NCBI RefSeq assembly: GCF_023195885.1
Contig: NZ_JALPKO010000002.1
Coordinates: 124,001 to 188,000, forward strand
Reading direction: 5' to 3'
Length of the DNA: 64,000 nucleotides
DNA from: Methylonatrum kenyense
GTDB lineage: Bacteria > Pseudomonadota > Gammaproteobacteria > Nitrococcales > Aquisalimonadaceae
Of this stretch, positions 4,554 through 40,572 are shown in pieces; within the stretch, counting starts at the first letter, position 1, and every line of letters begins with the position of its first letter. The translations under genes were made by a program, and so were the position numbers. Below the pieces are notes generated by a model. It did no database searches. It was not told the origin of the DNA and saw only the letters and a program-made list of their open reading frames with translations.

Positions 4554-4931
4554 CGAGAGGAGACCAACTGCGCCGCGGGACGACGGCCGCATGGACGCGG
4601 CCGTCGAGCACCGGAGGGCACCATGGACATAATTTCACATCTGCGCCCGAGACCGGTTTTGGTCATCTGGCAAGGCGCGGTGCCGGTTCGGTAGCCGTAG
4701 CTACCGGGCCGGTGACGCAACACAGCCAGGGGCCAAAACCGGCCGGGCCCTTCGGGTTGGGCCGCATTTTTCCCGATTGCTGTGTTGCGCTGCTTGACCG
4801 CAGAATGACTGCGGCGCTGCGCAGCGCGCCTTGCCTCGGAAAAAATGCGACTCCAAGGCAGATGCGAAATTATGTCCATGGTGCCCTACCAGGGTTTACA
4901 GCGTTCCCGCGGCGCAGTTGGTCTCCTCTCG
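4554..4931. repeat. Nested inverted-repeat (fold-back) element, copy A
   Basis: This element fills most of the 516-bp gap between the metalloprotease gene and mnmG. A perfect 27-bp outer inverted repeat pairs 4554-4580 with 4905-4931. An inner 29-bp repeat pairs 4615-4643 with 4859-4887 with one mismatch. The centre contains the same core seen in copies B, C and D (CGCCCGAGACCGG from about 4646, then GGTCATCTGGCAAGGCGC, later GGCCAAAACCGG). The whole segment could fold into one long hairpin. A 131-codon frame across it is not believable as a gene. The tips differ from the GGGAAACACTGA tips of the other copies. It encodes no transposase. Confidence 0.85.
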
Positions 4932-14287: not shown

Positions 14288-16726
<2,439 letters not shown>

Positions 16727-16729
<3 letters not shown>

Positions 16730-16764
16730 GGAAACACGGATCTATTCCCGCGTCTGCGCCCGAG
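16727..16764 (+). repeat. Fold-back repeat fragment, copy E, starting on the gyrB stop codon
   Basis: From the gyrB TAG onward the sequence reads TAGGGAAACACGGATCTATT and continues through CCCGCGTCTGCGCCCGAG. This matches the outer 38 bp of the repeat family. The rest of the element is absent. Confidence 0.75.
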
Positions 16765-21601: not shown

Positions 21602-22174
21602 ATGGCGGAACTGATTCTCGAGCCAGGCGCCACGGCCCAGTGGCAACAACTCGTTCGCGACGCGGAGAACCGTTGTGGCGCGCGGCTGGATGAGGATGCC
21701 CAGAGCTACCTGGTCTTCCTCCTGATGCGTTATCTGCGTCGGTCTGATCTGATACGCAGACTGCTGGCAATTGCCTATCTGCAGGCGATGGCCAGCCAGG
21801 GCCGTGCGCGCGCGGACCGACTACGTGATGTCGGCGACGAATGCCTGTTGCTCGGGGGCCTGTTTCCGGGCCAGATAAGGCGCCGGCGCGTGACACTTGA
21901 TTACGTCATCGATCTCGGTCAGGGAGCCTATGGTGAACTCGGCGCCAGTGACGGCTCCGCCCTGGCCAGCCTGTTCGGCAAGCTGGCACAGGATTTCCCG
22001 TTGTTACTGGACGTACTCGGAGAACTTCGGCGGAATCCGGACACCGACTCGCTGGACAGGATGGCCCTGGCTGCCCATCGCTTTCTTGAGTCGGGCAGCC
22101 CCGCAGCGCGTCGCGAGCTGGAAAGAGCACACGGTCGTCTGATCGGAGCGCCGGGGGCTGATCTCCTGCATTAA
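21602..22174 (+). CDS. Hypothetical protein, helical, cytosolic
   Basis: I do not recognise this 190-residue protein. It starts MAELILEPGATAQWQQLVRDA with an excellent GGAGGTGAG ribosome binding site 6 bp upstream. It is predicted mostly alpha-helical, with no signal peptide or membrane helix. LDEDAQSYLVFLLMRYLRR and LLAIAYLQAM suggest a packed helical core. It stands alone between glyQ (divergent) and the NtrC-controlled glnA region. Its TAA stop lies inside the terminal repeat of fold-back element B. Overlapping frames on the minus strand lack such a start signal. Confidence 0.65.
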   Translation: MAELILEPGATAQWQQLVRDAENRCGARLDEDAQSYLVFLLMRYLRRSDLIRRLLAIAYLQAMASQGRARADRLRDVGDECLLLGGLFPGQIRRRRVTLDYVIDLGQGAYGELGASDGSALASLFGKLAQDFPLLLDVLGELRRNPDTDSLDRMALAAHRFLESGSPAARRELERAHGRLIGAPGADLLH

Positions 22175-22343
22175 GGAAACACTGATTTATTCCCGCGTCT
22201 GCGCCCGAGACCGGTTTTGGCCATCTGACAAGGCGCGGTGCCGGCCCGGTAGCCAGAACTACCGGGCCGGTGACGCAACACAGCCAGGGGCCAAAACCGG
22301 CCGGGCCACTGGCAAGCATGCGAATAAATCAGTGTTTCCTTAA
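22171..22343 (+). repeat. Complete fold-back (MITE-like) element, copy B
   Basis: Perfect 22-bp terminal inverted repeats pair 22171-22192 with 22322-22343 (tip TTAAGGAAACACTGATTTAT). Inside, CCGGTTTTGGCC (22211-22222) pairs with GGCCAAAACCGG (22289-22300). CCGGCCCGGTAG (22241-22252) pairs with CTACCGGGCCGG (22259-22270). The element is 173 bp, has no gene, and shares about 110 bp of core with copy A. The left tip includes the TAA stop of the upstream gene. Confidence 0.88.
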
Positions 22344-22364
22344 GAAGACACGGACCAGCGTTTA

Positions 22365-22381
22365 CGCACTGATTTGGTGCA
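22365..22381. promoter_or_regulatory. NtrC-binding site 1 upstream of glnA
   Basis: CGCACTGATTTGGTGCA fits the NtrC enhancer pattern GCAC-N7-GTGC with dyad symmetry. It is centred about 129 bp before the predicted sigma-54 start point, like the upstream enhancer of E. coli glnAp2. Confidence 0.7.
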
Positions 22382-22394
22382 TGCTGCAACGATT

Positions 22395-22411
22395 TGCGCC
22401 TTATTAGTGCG
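22395..22411. promoter_or_regulatory. NtrC-binding site 2 upstream of glnA
   Basis: TGCGCCTTATTAGTGCG is a second NtrC-like dyad centred 30 bp (three helical turns) from site 1, so the two sites lie on one face of the DNA. That spacing supports cooperative NtrC oligomer binding. A weaker half site, TGCACT, follows at 22437. Confidence 0.6.
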
Positions 22412-22475
22412 TATTGCCGCGAGTCCTGCCATGCTCTGCACTATTAAAACGCGATGCCGCGCCATGTATTGGTGC

Positions 22476-22490
22476 TGGCACGGTTACTGC
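22476..22490 (+). promoter_or_regulatory. Sigma-54 promoter of glnA
   Basis: TGGCACGGTTACTGC has the invariant GG and GC exactly 12 bp apart and differs from the TGGCAC-N5-TTGC consensus at one base. Transcription would start near 22502, 45 bp before the glnA ATG. Confidence 0.75.
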
Positions 22491-22546
22491 TTTACTTCGC
22501 ATCGACCGCGCCTGGCGCGACTATTTTTCATGACCGGGAGGTAAGC

Positions 22547-28756: not shown

Positions 28757-28774
28757 TAGATCAGTGTTTCCCTA
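28757..28774 (-). repeat. Fold-back repeat tip, copy F
   Basis: TAGATCAGTGTTTCCCTA matches the outer tip of the repeat family (reverse complement TAGGGAAACACTGATCTA). Only the tip is present. It lies in the 250-bp spacer between the divergent genes fabG-like and trmL; I see no other feature in that spacer. On the minus strand it follows an in-frame TAG of an unassigned short frame. Confidence 0.55.
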
Positions 28775-28916
28775 GCGGAATCCGATCAGCTTCTCCATAC
28801 ACTGAACAGCCGATGCCGACGACGCAAGCTGCGCTGCCGCATGGCGGGCTGGACCCGGCCGGGTCGACACCGCAAAATGCCGGGCCGCCCGAAGCCAAGC
28901 CGGAGCATCGACGCAC

Positions 28917-35335: not shown

Positions 35336-35655
35336 GGGAAACGCTGACTTATTCGCACGCCTGCGTTGGAGTCCGCATTTTCTCCGAGGCAAGACACAAG
35401 GGTGCATTAAGCGCAGCGAATGCACGCGGTGTGATTCGTTACCATGATGCCAACCCGCGCTCGGTCACCGCCGCCGCCAATACCTTTCCCGGCCCTGGTT
35501 TGTTCGAACAACTTTGTTGTCCCGCCAACAGATCACACTGCGTGGGTCCGCTTCGCTTGACCCACCCTACGCCTCTACCGAACCGGCACCGCGGCTTGCC
35601 AGATGACCAAAACCGGTCTCAGGCGCAGACGCGGAAATAGATCAGCGTTTCCCTA
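35336..35655 (-). repeat. Fold-back element, copy C, starting on the ubiB stop codon
   Basis: Tips GGGAAACGCTGA (35336-35347) and its inverse TCAGCGTTTCCC (35642-35653) bound a 320-bp element that fills the tesB-ubiB gap. The ubiB-proximal end carries the family core (from the stop codon: TAGGGAAACGCTGATCTATT, then the CCGGTTTTGGTCATCTGGC block). The distal end resembles the right half of copy A (CTCCGAGGCAAG). A hairpin GTGGGTC/GACCCAC at 35542-35565 matches a short palindromic repeat common in proteobacteria. No believable gene lies inside. Confidence 0.82.
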
Positions 35656-37320
35656 ACGTCGGACCAGCGACACCACCAGGCCGATACCGGCCAGGCCGAG
35701 CAGGGACAGGCTCCAGCCTGCGGCATCGCCGGGCAGCAGTGCGCTGGCGCGCTGATCCAGCAGGCTGACCACCAGCGCTGCCAGCGCCAGCACTCCGGTG
35801 GTGTAAAGGCCCAGGCGGAGTCGGTTGCCGCGTTGCTGGGCATCGCGCAACTCCTGCACCGCGGTCGCCTGCCGGCGCACGTCGTCGCGCAGGCGATCCA
35901 GGTCATCCACCGCCTGCATCAGCTTGCCGGGCAGGTCCGGCAGTTGTTCACCCCAGGCCGGCAGTTGCTGGCGAATGCGGCGTAGCAGCGCGCGACCGCC
36001 CAGTTGTTCGCGCATCCAGCGCTGCATGTATGGCTTGGCCGTCTGCCAGAGGTCCAGGTCCGGGTACAGATCACGGCCCAGGCCCTCGATGTTGAGCAGG
36101 GTCTTCTGCAGCAGCACCAGCTGCGGCTGCACCACCATGTCGAAGCGCCGTCCGGTCTCGAACAGGCGCAGCAGGACAGCGCCAAACGAGATGTCCCGCA
36201 ACGGCCGTTCGAAGATCGGTTCGCAAACCGTGCGGATGGCGCCCTCGAATTCATCCACCCGGGTATCCGGAGGTACCCAGCCGGATTCCACATGCAGTTC
36301 CGCAACCCGGCGGTAGTCACGGTCAAAGAAGGCCAGGAAGTTTTCGGCCAGATAGCGGTGGTCGGTCGGGTTCAGGGTACCGACGATGCCGAAATCCACC
36401 GCGATATAGCGGGGATCCGCGGGATCCGTGGTGTCGACGAAGATATTGCCCGGGTGCATGTCGGCATGGAAGAAGCTGTCGCGGAACACCTGGGTGAAGA
36501 AGATCTCCACGCCCTTTTCCGCCAGCACCTTGAGATCCACGCCGCGGGCCCGCAGGGCCTCGATGTGGCCGATGGGCGTGCCGCTGACGCGTTCCATGAC
36601 CATGACCGTGCGCCGGCTGTGCTCGAACATCACGTCCGGTACATACAGCTTGTCGGAATCCAGGAAGTTGCGCCGCAGCTGCGACGCATTGGCCGCCTCG
36701 CGCAGCAGGTCCAGTTCGTCGATCAGGTTGCGTTCGAATTCCTCCACCACTTCCCGCGGCCGCAGGCGGCGGCCCAGATCGGAGTAGCGTTGCAACACAT
36801 CGGCGAAACTGTGCATGAGCTCCAGGTCACGCCGGATCACGCGGAAGATGCCCGGCCGCACCACCTTGACCACCACCTCGCGGCCATCCAGCAGCCGCGC
36901 GGAATGCACCTGGGCAATGGAGGCCGAGGCCAGCGGCACATCGTCGAAGCGCGCAAACACTGCATCCGGCGGGCAACCATAGGCCCGGGTGATGATGTCG
37001 CGGGCATCTGCCGCCGGGAACGGCGGCACCCGATCCTGCAGGTAGGACAACTGGTCGGCGATATCCGGCGGCAGCAGATCCCGTCGGGTCGACAGGATCT
37101 GACCGAACTTGACGAAGATCGGCCCCAGATCCTCCAGTGCCCGGCGAATGCGTTCACCGCGACTGTCCGGGTTGCGCCGGAACCAGGTCCAGGGTAGCAG
37201 CCAGCTCAGCCAGCGGACCGGCCGGAACAGCCGGGTGGCCAAGACCACCTCGTCCAGGCCGTGGCGGATCAGCACCAGGTTGATGCGAATCAGGTGGAGC
37301 ATCTGCCGTGGCCGGATCAT
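35653..37320 (-). CDS. ubiB: UbiB, atypical kinase-like ubiquinone biosynthesis protein
   Basis: UbiB is an ABC1/ADCK-family ATPase required for ubiquinone synthesis at the inner membrane. The 555-residue protein has the KxGQ signature PIFVKFGQILSTRRDLLPPD, the ASIAQVHSARL segment, HADMHPGNIFVD and VDFGIVG, and two C-terminal membrane helices (about 505-550). The ATG at 37320 is chosen and overlaps the ubiJ stop by 4 bp. The TAG stop falls on the tip of fold-back element C. Confidence 0.95.
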   Translation of the reverse strand: MIRPRQMLHLIRINLVLIRHGLDEVVLATRLFRPVRWLSWLLPWTWFRRNPDSRGERIRRALEDLGPIFVKFGQILSTRRDLLPPDIADQLSYLQDRVPPFPAADARDIITRAYGCPPDAVFARFDDVPLASASIAQVHSARLLDGREVVVKVVRPGIFRVIRRDLELMHSFADVLQRYSDLGRRLRPREVVEEFERNLIDELDLLREAANASQLRRNFLDSDKLYVPDVMFEHSRRTVMVMERVSGTPIGHIEALRARGVDLKVLAEKGVEIFFTQVFRDSFFHADMHPGNIFVDTTDPADPRYIAVDFGIVGTLNPTDHRYLAENFLAFFDRDYRRVAELHVESGWVPPDTRVDEFEGAIRTVCEPIFERPLRDISFGAVLLRLFETGRRFDMVVQPQLVLLQKTLLNIEGLGRDLYPDLDLWQTAKPYMQRWMREQLGGRALLRRIRQQLPAWGEQLPDLPGKLMQAVDDLDRLRDDVRRQATAVQELRDAQQRGNRLRLGLYTTGVLALAALVVSLLDQRASALLPGDAAGWSLSLLGLAGIGLVVSLVRR

Positions 37321-39160: not shown

Positions 39161-39231
39161 GGCACCCTGCCTAGCCAGATGACCAAAGCCGGTCTCGGGC
39201 GCAGGCGCGGGAATAAGTCAGTGCTTCCCTA
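39161..39231 (-). repeat. Fold-back repeat fragment, copy D, starting on the hslU stop codon
   Basis: On the minus strand the hslU TAG begins TAGGGAAGCACTGACTTATT. It continues through the family core CCCGCGCCTGCGCCCGAGA and CCGGCTTTGGTCATCTGGC, then diverges before the DUF971 gene. Only one half of the element is present, about 70 bp. Confidence 0.78.
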
Positions 39232-40572
39232 AAGAATATAGCGACTGAGATCCCGGTTCTGCGCCAGGTCGGAGAGGTGCTGGTCGACGTAGGCCGCATC
39301 CACGGTCACGGCCTGGCCGCCCTGATCCGAGGCCTCGTAGGAAATCGTCTCCAGCAGCCGTTCCATCACGGTATGCAACCGTCGGGCACCGATGTTCTCG
39401 GTGCCCTCGTTGACCTCCCAGGCCACCTGGGCGATGCGCGCGATGCCGTCCTCGGTGAAGCTCAGTTCACAGCCTTCGGTGCCAATCAGTGCCGTGTACT
39501 GCTCGGTGAGCGAGGCGTTGGGCTCGGTCAGTATGCGAACGAAGTCCTCCACCGACAGGGCATCCAGTTCGACCCGGATCGGCAGCCTGCCCTGCAGCTC
39601 GGGAATCAGGTCCGAGGGTTTGGACAGGTGGAAGGCGCCGGAGGCGATGAACAGGATGTGGTCGGTGCGCACCGAACCGTGCCGGGTGGAGACCGTGCTG
39701 CCCTCCACAAGCGGCAGCAGATCCCGCTGCACGCCCTCGCGGGAGACGTCGGCTCCGCCACTGCCGCCACCATCACTGCGCCGGGCAACCTTGTCGAGTT
39801 CGTCGAGGAAGACGATGCCGTGCTGTTCCACCCGCTCTACCGCGGCCAGCCGGATTTCCTCATCGTTGACCAGCTTGGCGGCCTCTTCCTCGCGCAGCAC
39901 CTTGCGCGCGTCGCGAATCTTCATGCGCCGCTTGCGGGTGCGCTGGCCGCCCAGGTTCTGGAACATGTTCTGCAGCTGGCTGGTCATCTCCTCCATGCCG
40001 GGCGGTGCCATGATTTCCACACCAGGCTGCGAGGCGGAGACCTCCACCTCCACCTCGCGATCATCCAGGTCGCCGAAACGCAGTTTGTTACGGAACTTGG
40101 TCCGGGTCGCCGAATCGGCGGGCTCAGCCTCGCCGTCGTCCCACTGGGAGACCGTCGGCCGTGGCAGCAGGATGTCCAGCAGCCGTTCCTCGGCTGCCTC
40201 CTCGGCCCGGTAGCGGACCTGGTCCATGGCCTCTTCCCGAGTCAGCTTGATCGCCGAATCCACCAGGTCGCGGACGATGGATTCCACATCGCGGCCGACG
40301 TAACCCACCTCGGTGAACTTGGTGGCCTCGATCTTGATGAACGGCGCCCGCGCCAAACGTGCCAGCCGGCGAGCGATCTCGGTCTTGCCGACGCCGGTCG
40401 GCCCGATCATCAGGATGTTTTTCGGCGTGATTTCGCGTCGCAGATCCTCGTCCAGCTGGCTTCGCCGCCAGCGGTTCCGCAGCGCGATGGCGACGGCCCG
40501 TTTGGCGTTGCCCTGGCCGATGATGTAGCGGTCCAGTTCCTGGACGATTTCGCGTGGTGTCATTTCCGACAT
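39229..40572 (-). CDS. hslU: ATP-dependent protease ATPase subunit HslU
   Basis: HslU is the AAA+ unfoldase of the HslVU protease. The 447-residue protein has Walker [20 protein letters not shown], the region [14 protein letters not shown], an intermediate domain (about 110-240), Walker [11 protein letters not shown], and the C-terminal tail [12 protein letters not shown] that docks into HslV. The protein therefore ends at its native C-terminus, with the TAG stop overlapping the tip of repeat copy D. It lies 12 bp after hslV. Confidence 0.97.

Follow-up and report, generated by a model that had tools for sequence, protein, structure and literature searches.

Fold-back repeats of Methylonatrum kenyense as probable IS5-type miniature transposons that crowd at stop codons

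The 64,000-nucleotide stretch of Methylonatrum kenyense DNA analysed here (hereafter the window; positions 124,001 to 188,000 of contig NZ_JALPKO010000002.1, assembly GCF_023195885.1) carries a family of fold-back repeats, several of which begin on the stop codon of a gene. These repeats are very probably copies of a small non-autonomous transposon, a miniature inverted-repeat transposable element (MITE), mobilised in trans by a DDE transposase of the IS5 family of insertion sequences (IS). They insert into the 4-bp target YTAR, which is duplicated and, since it includes TAG and TAA, restores the stop when the insertion falls into a stop codon. Elements of this kind are already known, and their crowding at stop codons, which the target motif explains in part, is a modest new detail.

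The element, its target site and its IS5-family relatives

The alignment of 29 M. kenyense copies gives a consensus of about 270 bp, with variants of 165–406 bp, bounded by 18-bp terminal inverted repeats (GGAAACRCTGATYTATTC). The target YTAR occurs as CTAG, TTAA, TTAG, and CTAA. In an element-rich sample of 53 stretches (1.10 Mb), it lies outside 114 of 196 tips (TTAA 47, CTAG 45, TTAG 16, CTAA 6) and is the same at both ends in 23 of 56 paired elements. The T(A/G) with which the element apparently starts is target sequence and lies outside the element proper. Base frequencies at the flanking positions yield no trustworthy extended consensus beyond YTAR, with an excess of C/G at position −6 at stop sites that is absent from other sites.

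Several features that define a MITE are present: the copies are short and end in inverted repeats, without a transposase (0 PF01609 matches genome-wide); target duplication goes together with many dispersed copies; and the ends are common to autonomous IS5-family elements, found in the related genomes G004 and G011 rather than in M. kenyense itself. The 4-bp YTAR duplication is also that expected of mobilisation by IS5, which duplicates Py-T-A-Pu, most commonly CTAG, according to the text available from PMC5493358, and whose target is given as YTAR in that of PMC10359306. Some copies of 50–52 bp, barely more than both terminal repeats, are flanked by perfect TTAA, CTAA or CTAG duplications (L031:15242-15291, L085:6124-6173, and L092:5507-5558) and are perhaps still mobile.

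The 12-base tip GGAAACRCTGAT has 371 matches (up to one mismatch) in the M. kenyense genome (2.95 Mb in 29 contigs), compared to 5 for the reversed pattern, so that the tip is not a product of chance. With the 18-base tip, also allowing one mismatch, 22 of 95 genomes, M. kenyense included, gave a match: 196 tips were counted in M. kenyense, 126, 179, and 5 in three other genomes of its genus, 87, 54, and 31 in one sister genus, and 0 to 8 elsewhere. An exact 44-base core matched 48 stretches of a named genome collection, which may omit M. kenyense's own records, all of them in two Ectothiorhodospiraceae metagenome-assembled genomes (MAGs), T3Sed10_218 and CSBr16_16; on this evidence, M. kenyense probably belongs to the same family.

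Autonomous relatives occur in G004, which has four 1,202-bp elements with the perfect 18-mer at one end, another end starting GGAAGCGCTGATCTAATG, and CTAA, CTAG or TTAG as flanks. Their mutual identity is 99.67–99.92% over about 1.2 kb where compared, and each of them has an uninterrupted frame with a PF01609 match. The transposase read from one of these elements (L094) has 327 residues and matches PF01609, PF05598, and the NF033581 model 'IS5 family transposase' with 339.5 bits (cut-off 140). A single 1,202-bp element in G011, flanked by CTAG and CTAA, encodes an enzyme 95% identical to that of G004. The tips of these five elements are GGAAACGCTGAT, GGAAGCGCTGAT or near variants, always with YTAR flanks, and at four of eight ends of autonomous copies open frames (not gene calls), 31–146 codons long, finish exactly at the target. 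Thus, the proposal of an earlier sequence-only reading that a mobile element is moved in trans and lands at gene ends was right in outline: the transposase was not found at home, while relatives contain complete IS5 elements whose ends and target agree with those of the MITE. At least 10 contigs of another genome, G005, start about 30–45 bases ahead of a reverse tip, as if the assembly had broken at near-identical recent copies; despite these contig starts, PF01609 was not found in G005.

Among the systems described, the closest is MITEPsy1 of Pseudomonas syringae pv. phaseolicola, whose ends resemble those of an IS, its presumed source ISPsy2, and whose target is CTAG or YTAA; it differs in its length of 100 nt and in its sequence, and the available text of PMC3189936 describes no link to stop codons. 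The likeness to IS5 of Escherichia coli and its family lies in the transposase (NF033581, PF01609, and PF05598 in the relatives' element) and in the Py-T-A-Pu target, as given in the accessible portions of PMC5493358, PMC10359306, and PMC11677980, but those elements are autonomous, while the copies described here lack a transposase gene. In Coxiella burnetii, the MITE QMITE2 is reported mainly from 3′ untranslated regions, with enhC bearing a copy at its 3′ end, although the sections available of PMC10969869 and PMC5896051 do not describe it as lying within a stop codon through target duplication. Among the papers listed for the terms searched in one open-licence library, no report was recognised of a MITE or IS family that crowds stop codons by means of its target duplication.

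Coincidence with stop codons, orientation and orthologous gene ends

In the window, the tip directly adjoins the stops of the gene at 21602, ubiB, hslU, and gyrB (copies B, C, D, and E; Table 1), exactly where the sequence-only reading had placed it. This coincidence extends beyond the window. In the sample, where gene ends were called by a home-made gene finder based on a hexamer model and tips were counted as 18-mers with up to three mismatches (the 82 with a non-YTAR flank being dropped before counting), 32 of the 114 YTAR-flanked tips start exactly behind the stop codon of a gene pointing at them, at 32 distinct gene ends, and the remaining 82 lie off any stop. Motif-matched draws, taken from YTAR sites in spacers and at stops that carry no copy, gave an expectation of 9.8 coincidences (sd 3.0) and never more than 20 in 2,000 draws; drawing from all YTAR, including those within genes, lowers it to 6.1. 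The stop itself is YTAR in 171 of 987 gene ends, and 32 of these 171 are occupied, a share that is probably lower genome-wide, since the stretches were partly chosen for their tips. Two sets of MAG loci, picked for holding a copy, have 9 of 29 and 11 of 25 YTAR ends occupied.

When the tips are shifted by −15 to +15 bases, every other offset yields 0 or 1 coincidences, except for 5 at +11, which arise because the TGA within the tip GGAAACACTGA ends the gene. In these five genes the element supplies the stop, the TGA lying 11 bases into the YTAR-flanked tip (L042:3100, L047:15126, L049:19682, L089:8803, and L168:13224; 0-based, + strand); such tips may have inserted into the 3′ portion of the gene.

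The sequence-only reading had also held that the elements always face the gene with the same end, and had proposed a genome-wide tabulation of distance and orientation. Tabulated in the 1.10-Mb sample, the enrichment at stops is borne out, and the fixed orientation is refuted. The end towards the gene is L at 15 of the 32 stops, R at 11, and unclassified at 6, compared to 48, 35, and 31, respectively, for all 114 YTAR tips. Among 57 complete L/R elements from three genomes, those flanking a stop do so with the L end in 10 cases, with the R end in 6, and with both in 1 (p = 0.45), and the same stop, identified by aligning the gene, has met the R end in M. kenyense and the L end in CSBr16_16 (L088 vs. 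L127). The four window copies that point the same way are within chance. Tips facing stops in the two MAG sets are L 7, R 1, unclassified 1, and L 8, R 2, unclassified 1, an excess not counted as evidence because an L-end pattern was used to retrieve these loci and several of the matches are located at the ends of contigs; for complete elements, the MAG sets give L 5 and R 2. A mild bias towards the L orientation may exist.

Comparison of orthologous gene ends is consistent with elements having entered exactly at the stop. For gyrB (13 loci, one ending before the gene end), only M. kenyense has a tip at the stop; in G001, a tip lies 83 nt downstream, and G008, G009, and G012 keep an unoccupied YTAR stop. 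The hslU stop carries a tip in 3 of 14 genomes, all of the same genus and each with YTAR (TTAG, CTAG, and CTAA), and the other 11 have no YTAR stop. The ubiB stop is likewise occupied in 3 of 14 genomes, one of which, G011, belongs to another genus, so that its copy probably arose independently; among the remaining 11, a YTAR stop exists in G008 alone. The gene at 21602 is occupied in one of three genomes, ends in TTAG without an element in G002, and ends in TGA in G001. All eight occupied ends are thus YTAR (gyrB 1, hslU 3, the 21602 gene 1, ubiB 3), and since copies occur at these four genes only where the stop is YTAR, many absences merely reflect stops that are not targets. Unoccupied orthologues of the kind sought by the sequence-only reading are this G002 gene and locus L106, which aligns to the gene end of L152 through CTAG and then continues with no tip; one flank is aligned, and the empty site is therefore one-sided. 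A copy with a CTTG flank that overlaps a gene end is shared with a MAG (L164 vs. L128).

Target motif, survival and rival explanations

The mechanism proposed here starts from the matching 18-bp inverted ends, the YTAR duplication, the complete IS5 elements of the same taxonomic family, whose ends match and whose flanks are YTAR, and the orthologous gene ends free of the element. An IS5-type transposase would recognise the ends and join the element into YTAR; where this target lies at a stop codon, its duplication would leave the gene its natural end, whichever way the element is oriented. Insertions into gene interiors would be purged, while copies would survive at stops and in spacers, so that in a gene-dense genome of 64% G+C the YTAR stops would act as a refuge, about one in five of them being occupied in the element-rich sample. 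A further two- to three-fold excess at stops could come, less certainly, from copies surviving better right at gene ends and perhaps from some insertion preference.

The distribution of occupied sites is consistent with this picture. Occupied sides amount to 32/159 at stops, 16/204 at 1–100 nt from a gene's 3′ end, 26/218 at 0–100 nt from a 5′ end, 35/1068 more than 100 nt away, 0/1093 in gene interiors, and 0/43 where no gene neighbours the site, with five tips overlapping a gene end. Restricting the comparison to sites near genes, 32 of 74 tips are at stops against 17.4 expected, an excess of about two- to three-fold. A decay bias, by which dropping the tips with a non-YTAR flank would favour stops because a stop conserves its YTAR (3 of the 82 dropped tips also lie at a gene end), was considered and rejected, as copies with perfect duplicates alone keep the excess: 12 of their 46 tips are at stops, where 3.9 are expected, and 11 of these 23 elements adjoin a stop at one end or the other. 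The next co-directional gene lies no more than 10 nt behind 0 of 30 occupied stops, compared to 20 of 135 stops without a copy (p = 0.026), and this lack of close co-directional genes is a sign of selection. A preference for convergent genes was not supported among non-tight stops (14 of 28 occupied vs. 37 of 102 unoccupied, p = 0.20). We think that the crowding at stops reflects the target motif and, for the rest, mainly survival, with some insertion preference being possible.

Several points weigh against this account. Neither PF01609 nor NF033581 has a match in the M. kenyense genome, which is in 29 contigs, so that a transposase could have been missed, and the MITE and the G004 IS copies, compared by eye over the first 76–120 bases of each end, agree in the end repeats but not in the inner sequence; mobilisation by an IS5-type enzyme is thus argued from ends and target, and the MITE may derive from a parent other than these copies. 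Most of the sampled stretches were not random, and the gene finder tends to end interrupted genes at or in the element, so that the 0/1093 for gene interiors may hide some of the five overlaps. Furthermore, the motif alone falls short of the excess at stops, the Mantel–Haenszel odds ratio being 2.9 for stops compared to 3′ sites at 1–100 nt (p = 0.003), 1.9 compared to 5′ sites (p = 0.04), and 2.2 compared to both together (p = 0.004).

This shortfall could also be explained by active targeting, in which the transposition complex would prefer the DNA of transcript ends (destabilised duplex or termination zones) in addition to YTAR. The excess over motif-matched sites near genes, perfect-duplicate copies included, points in this direction, as do the dependence of E. 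coli IS5 on local DNA structure reported in the available text of PMC5493358 and PMC11677980, the presence of tips at ubiB stops in two genera, and the stop hit in opposite orientations in two species. However, occupancy is also high just 5′ of genes, and the missing close co-directional genes point to selection; this explanation is rather unlikely. That IS5-type machinery prefers gene 3′ ends beyond what YTAR and selection give, so that stop codons would form a genuine niche for integration, is a doubtful proposition; if true, the transposon would have a strategy in which a stop-regenerating target duplication renders insertion at gene ends harmless.

The other option of the sequence-only reading was a domesticated 3′ module by which transcripts are ended or processed; selection would then keep the copies where genes end. 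Folding prediction gives the full element a long closing stem that encloses smaller hairpins, changes on both sides occur in 15 of 104 pairs, and three species of the genus have copies at the hslU stop. Yet copies at stops are not better preserved than those elsewhere, either in being full-length (6/32 vs. 31/82, p = 0.07) or in having the partner tip (18/32 vs. 60/82, p = 0.12), the window copies at gyrB and hslU are fragments, and orientation is free. Of the 54 cells with changes on both sides, 42 belong to the terminal repeats, and such changes can result from arm-to-arm correction or descent. No terminator-like site (a G+C-rich stem followed by a T-run) was found in the one region scanned, 22100–22500 around copy B, and Rfam gave no match in the window at the gathering score. 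The option thus finds little support and is highly improbable. Even less credible are REP/REPIN-like palindromes or intrinsic terminators placed by a Y1 (RAYT) transposase: many copies, palindromic sequence, and a mostly extragenic location would fit, but the duplicated YTAR targets, the IS5-type ends, the matching DDE elements, and the lack of a T-run terminator around copy B speak against this.

In the alignment of copies (A1, columns 4–18 with 256–271), the variable positions of the two terminal repeats tend to co-vary in individual copies (column 13/261: UA 16, GC 7, CG 5), and one small inner hairpin exhibits paired two-base swaps. These paired changes suggest ends kept matched within each copy by arm-to-arm correction or by subfamily descent, and are no proof of an RNA function.

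A transposon whose target contains a stop provides a countable case of an element filling a gene-dense genome while leaving the genes unbroken (in the element-rich sample, 32/171 YTAR stops are occupied compared to 0/1,093 interior sides, with the gene-finder caveat given above). For annotation, it serves as a warning that TAG or TAA followed by GGAAAC is a target and a transposon end, and not a regulatory 3′ element.

Copies in the window

The coordinates of the copies are listed in Table 1. Copy B, among the short variants, reads TTAA, the 18-bp repeat GGAAACACTGATTTATTC opening a 165-bp element that closes with the inverted repeat, and again TTAA (22171–22343).

Table 1. Copies of the element and their target sites in the window.
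Feature	Positions	Strand	Remarks
Copy A	4554..4931	+	both inner MITE modules, inside a different inverted repeat, without IS5-type tips
Copy E target site CTAG	16726..16729	+	holds gyrB stop
Copy E, fragment of about 35 bp	16730..16764	+	L tip and a few L-module bases; towards gyrB
Copy B left target duplication TTAA	22171..22174	+	the TAA within it ends the 21602-22174 gene
Copy B, 165-bp MITE variant	22175..22339	+	L end towards gene; both 18-bp ends match perfectly as inverted repeats
Copy B right target duplication TTAA	22340..22343	+	
Copy F, solo tip	28757..28775	-	target site CTAG at 28772-28775; off any stop codon; 5′ end of nearest same-side gene 145 nt away
Copy C, 316-bp variant whose middle differs	35337..35652	-	L end towards ubiB
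Copy C target site TTAG	35653..35656	-	holds ubiB stop; other-end flank CTGG, an imperfect duplicate
Copy D, fragment	39161..39228	-	L tip and part of L module only; towards hslU
Copy D target site TTAG	39229..39232	-	holds hslU stop

Of the six copies or fragments to which the sequence-only reading had ascribed a common tip and core, B to E carry the tip at a stop, F has the tip but does not lie at a stop, and A has the core but not these tips. In the 1.10-Mb sample, the tip accompanies 50 of 56 L cores, unlike in copy A, whose long enclosing inverted repeat (CGAGAGGAGACC... and GGGCACCATGGACATAATTTC) has its only exact match at copy A itself. Copy A may have arisen when another element or a rearrangement re-framed a MITE.
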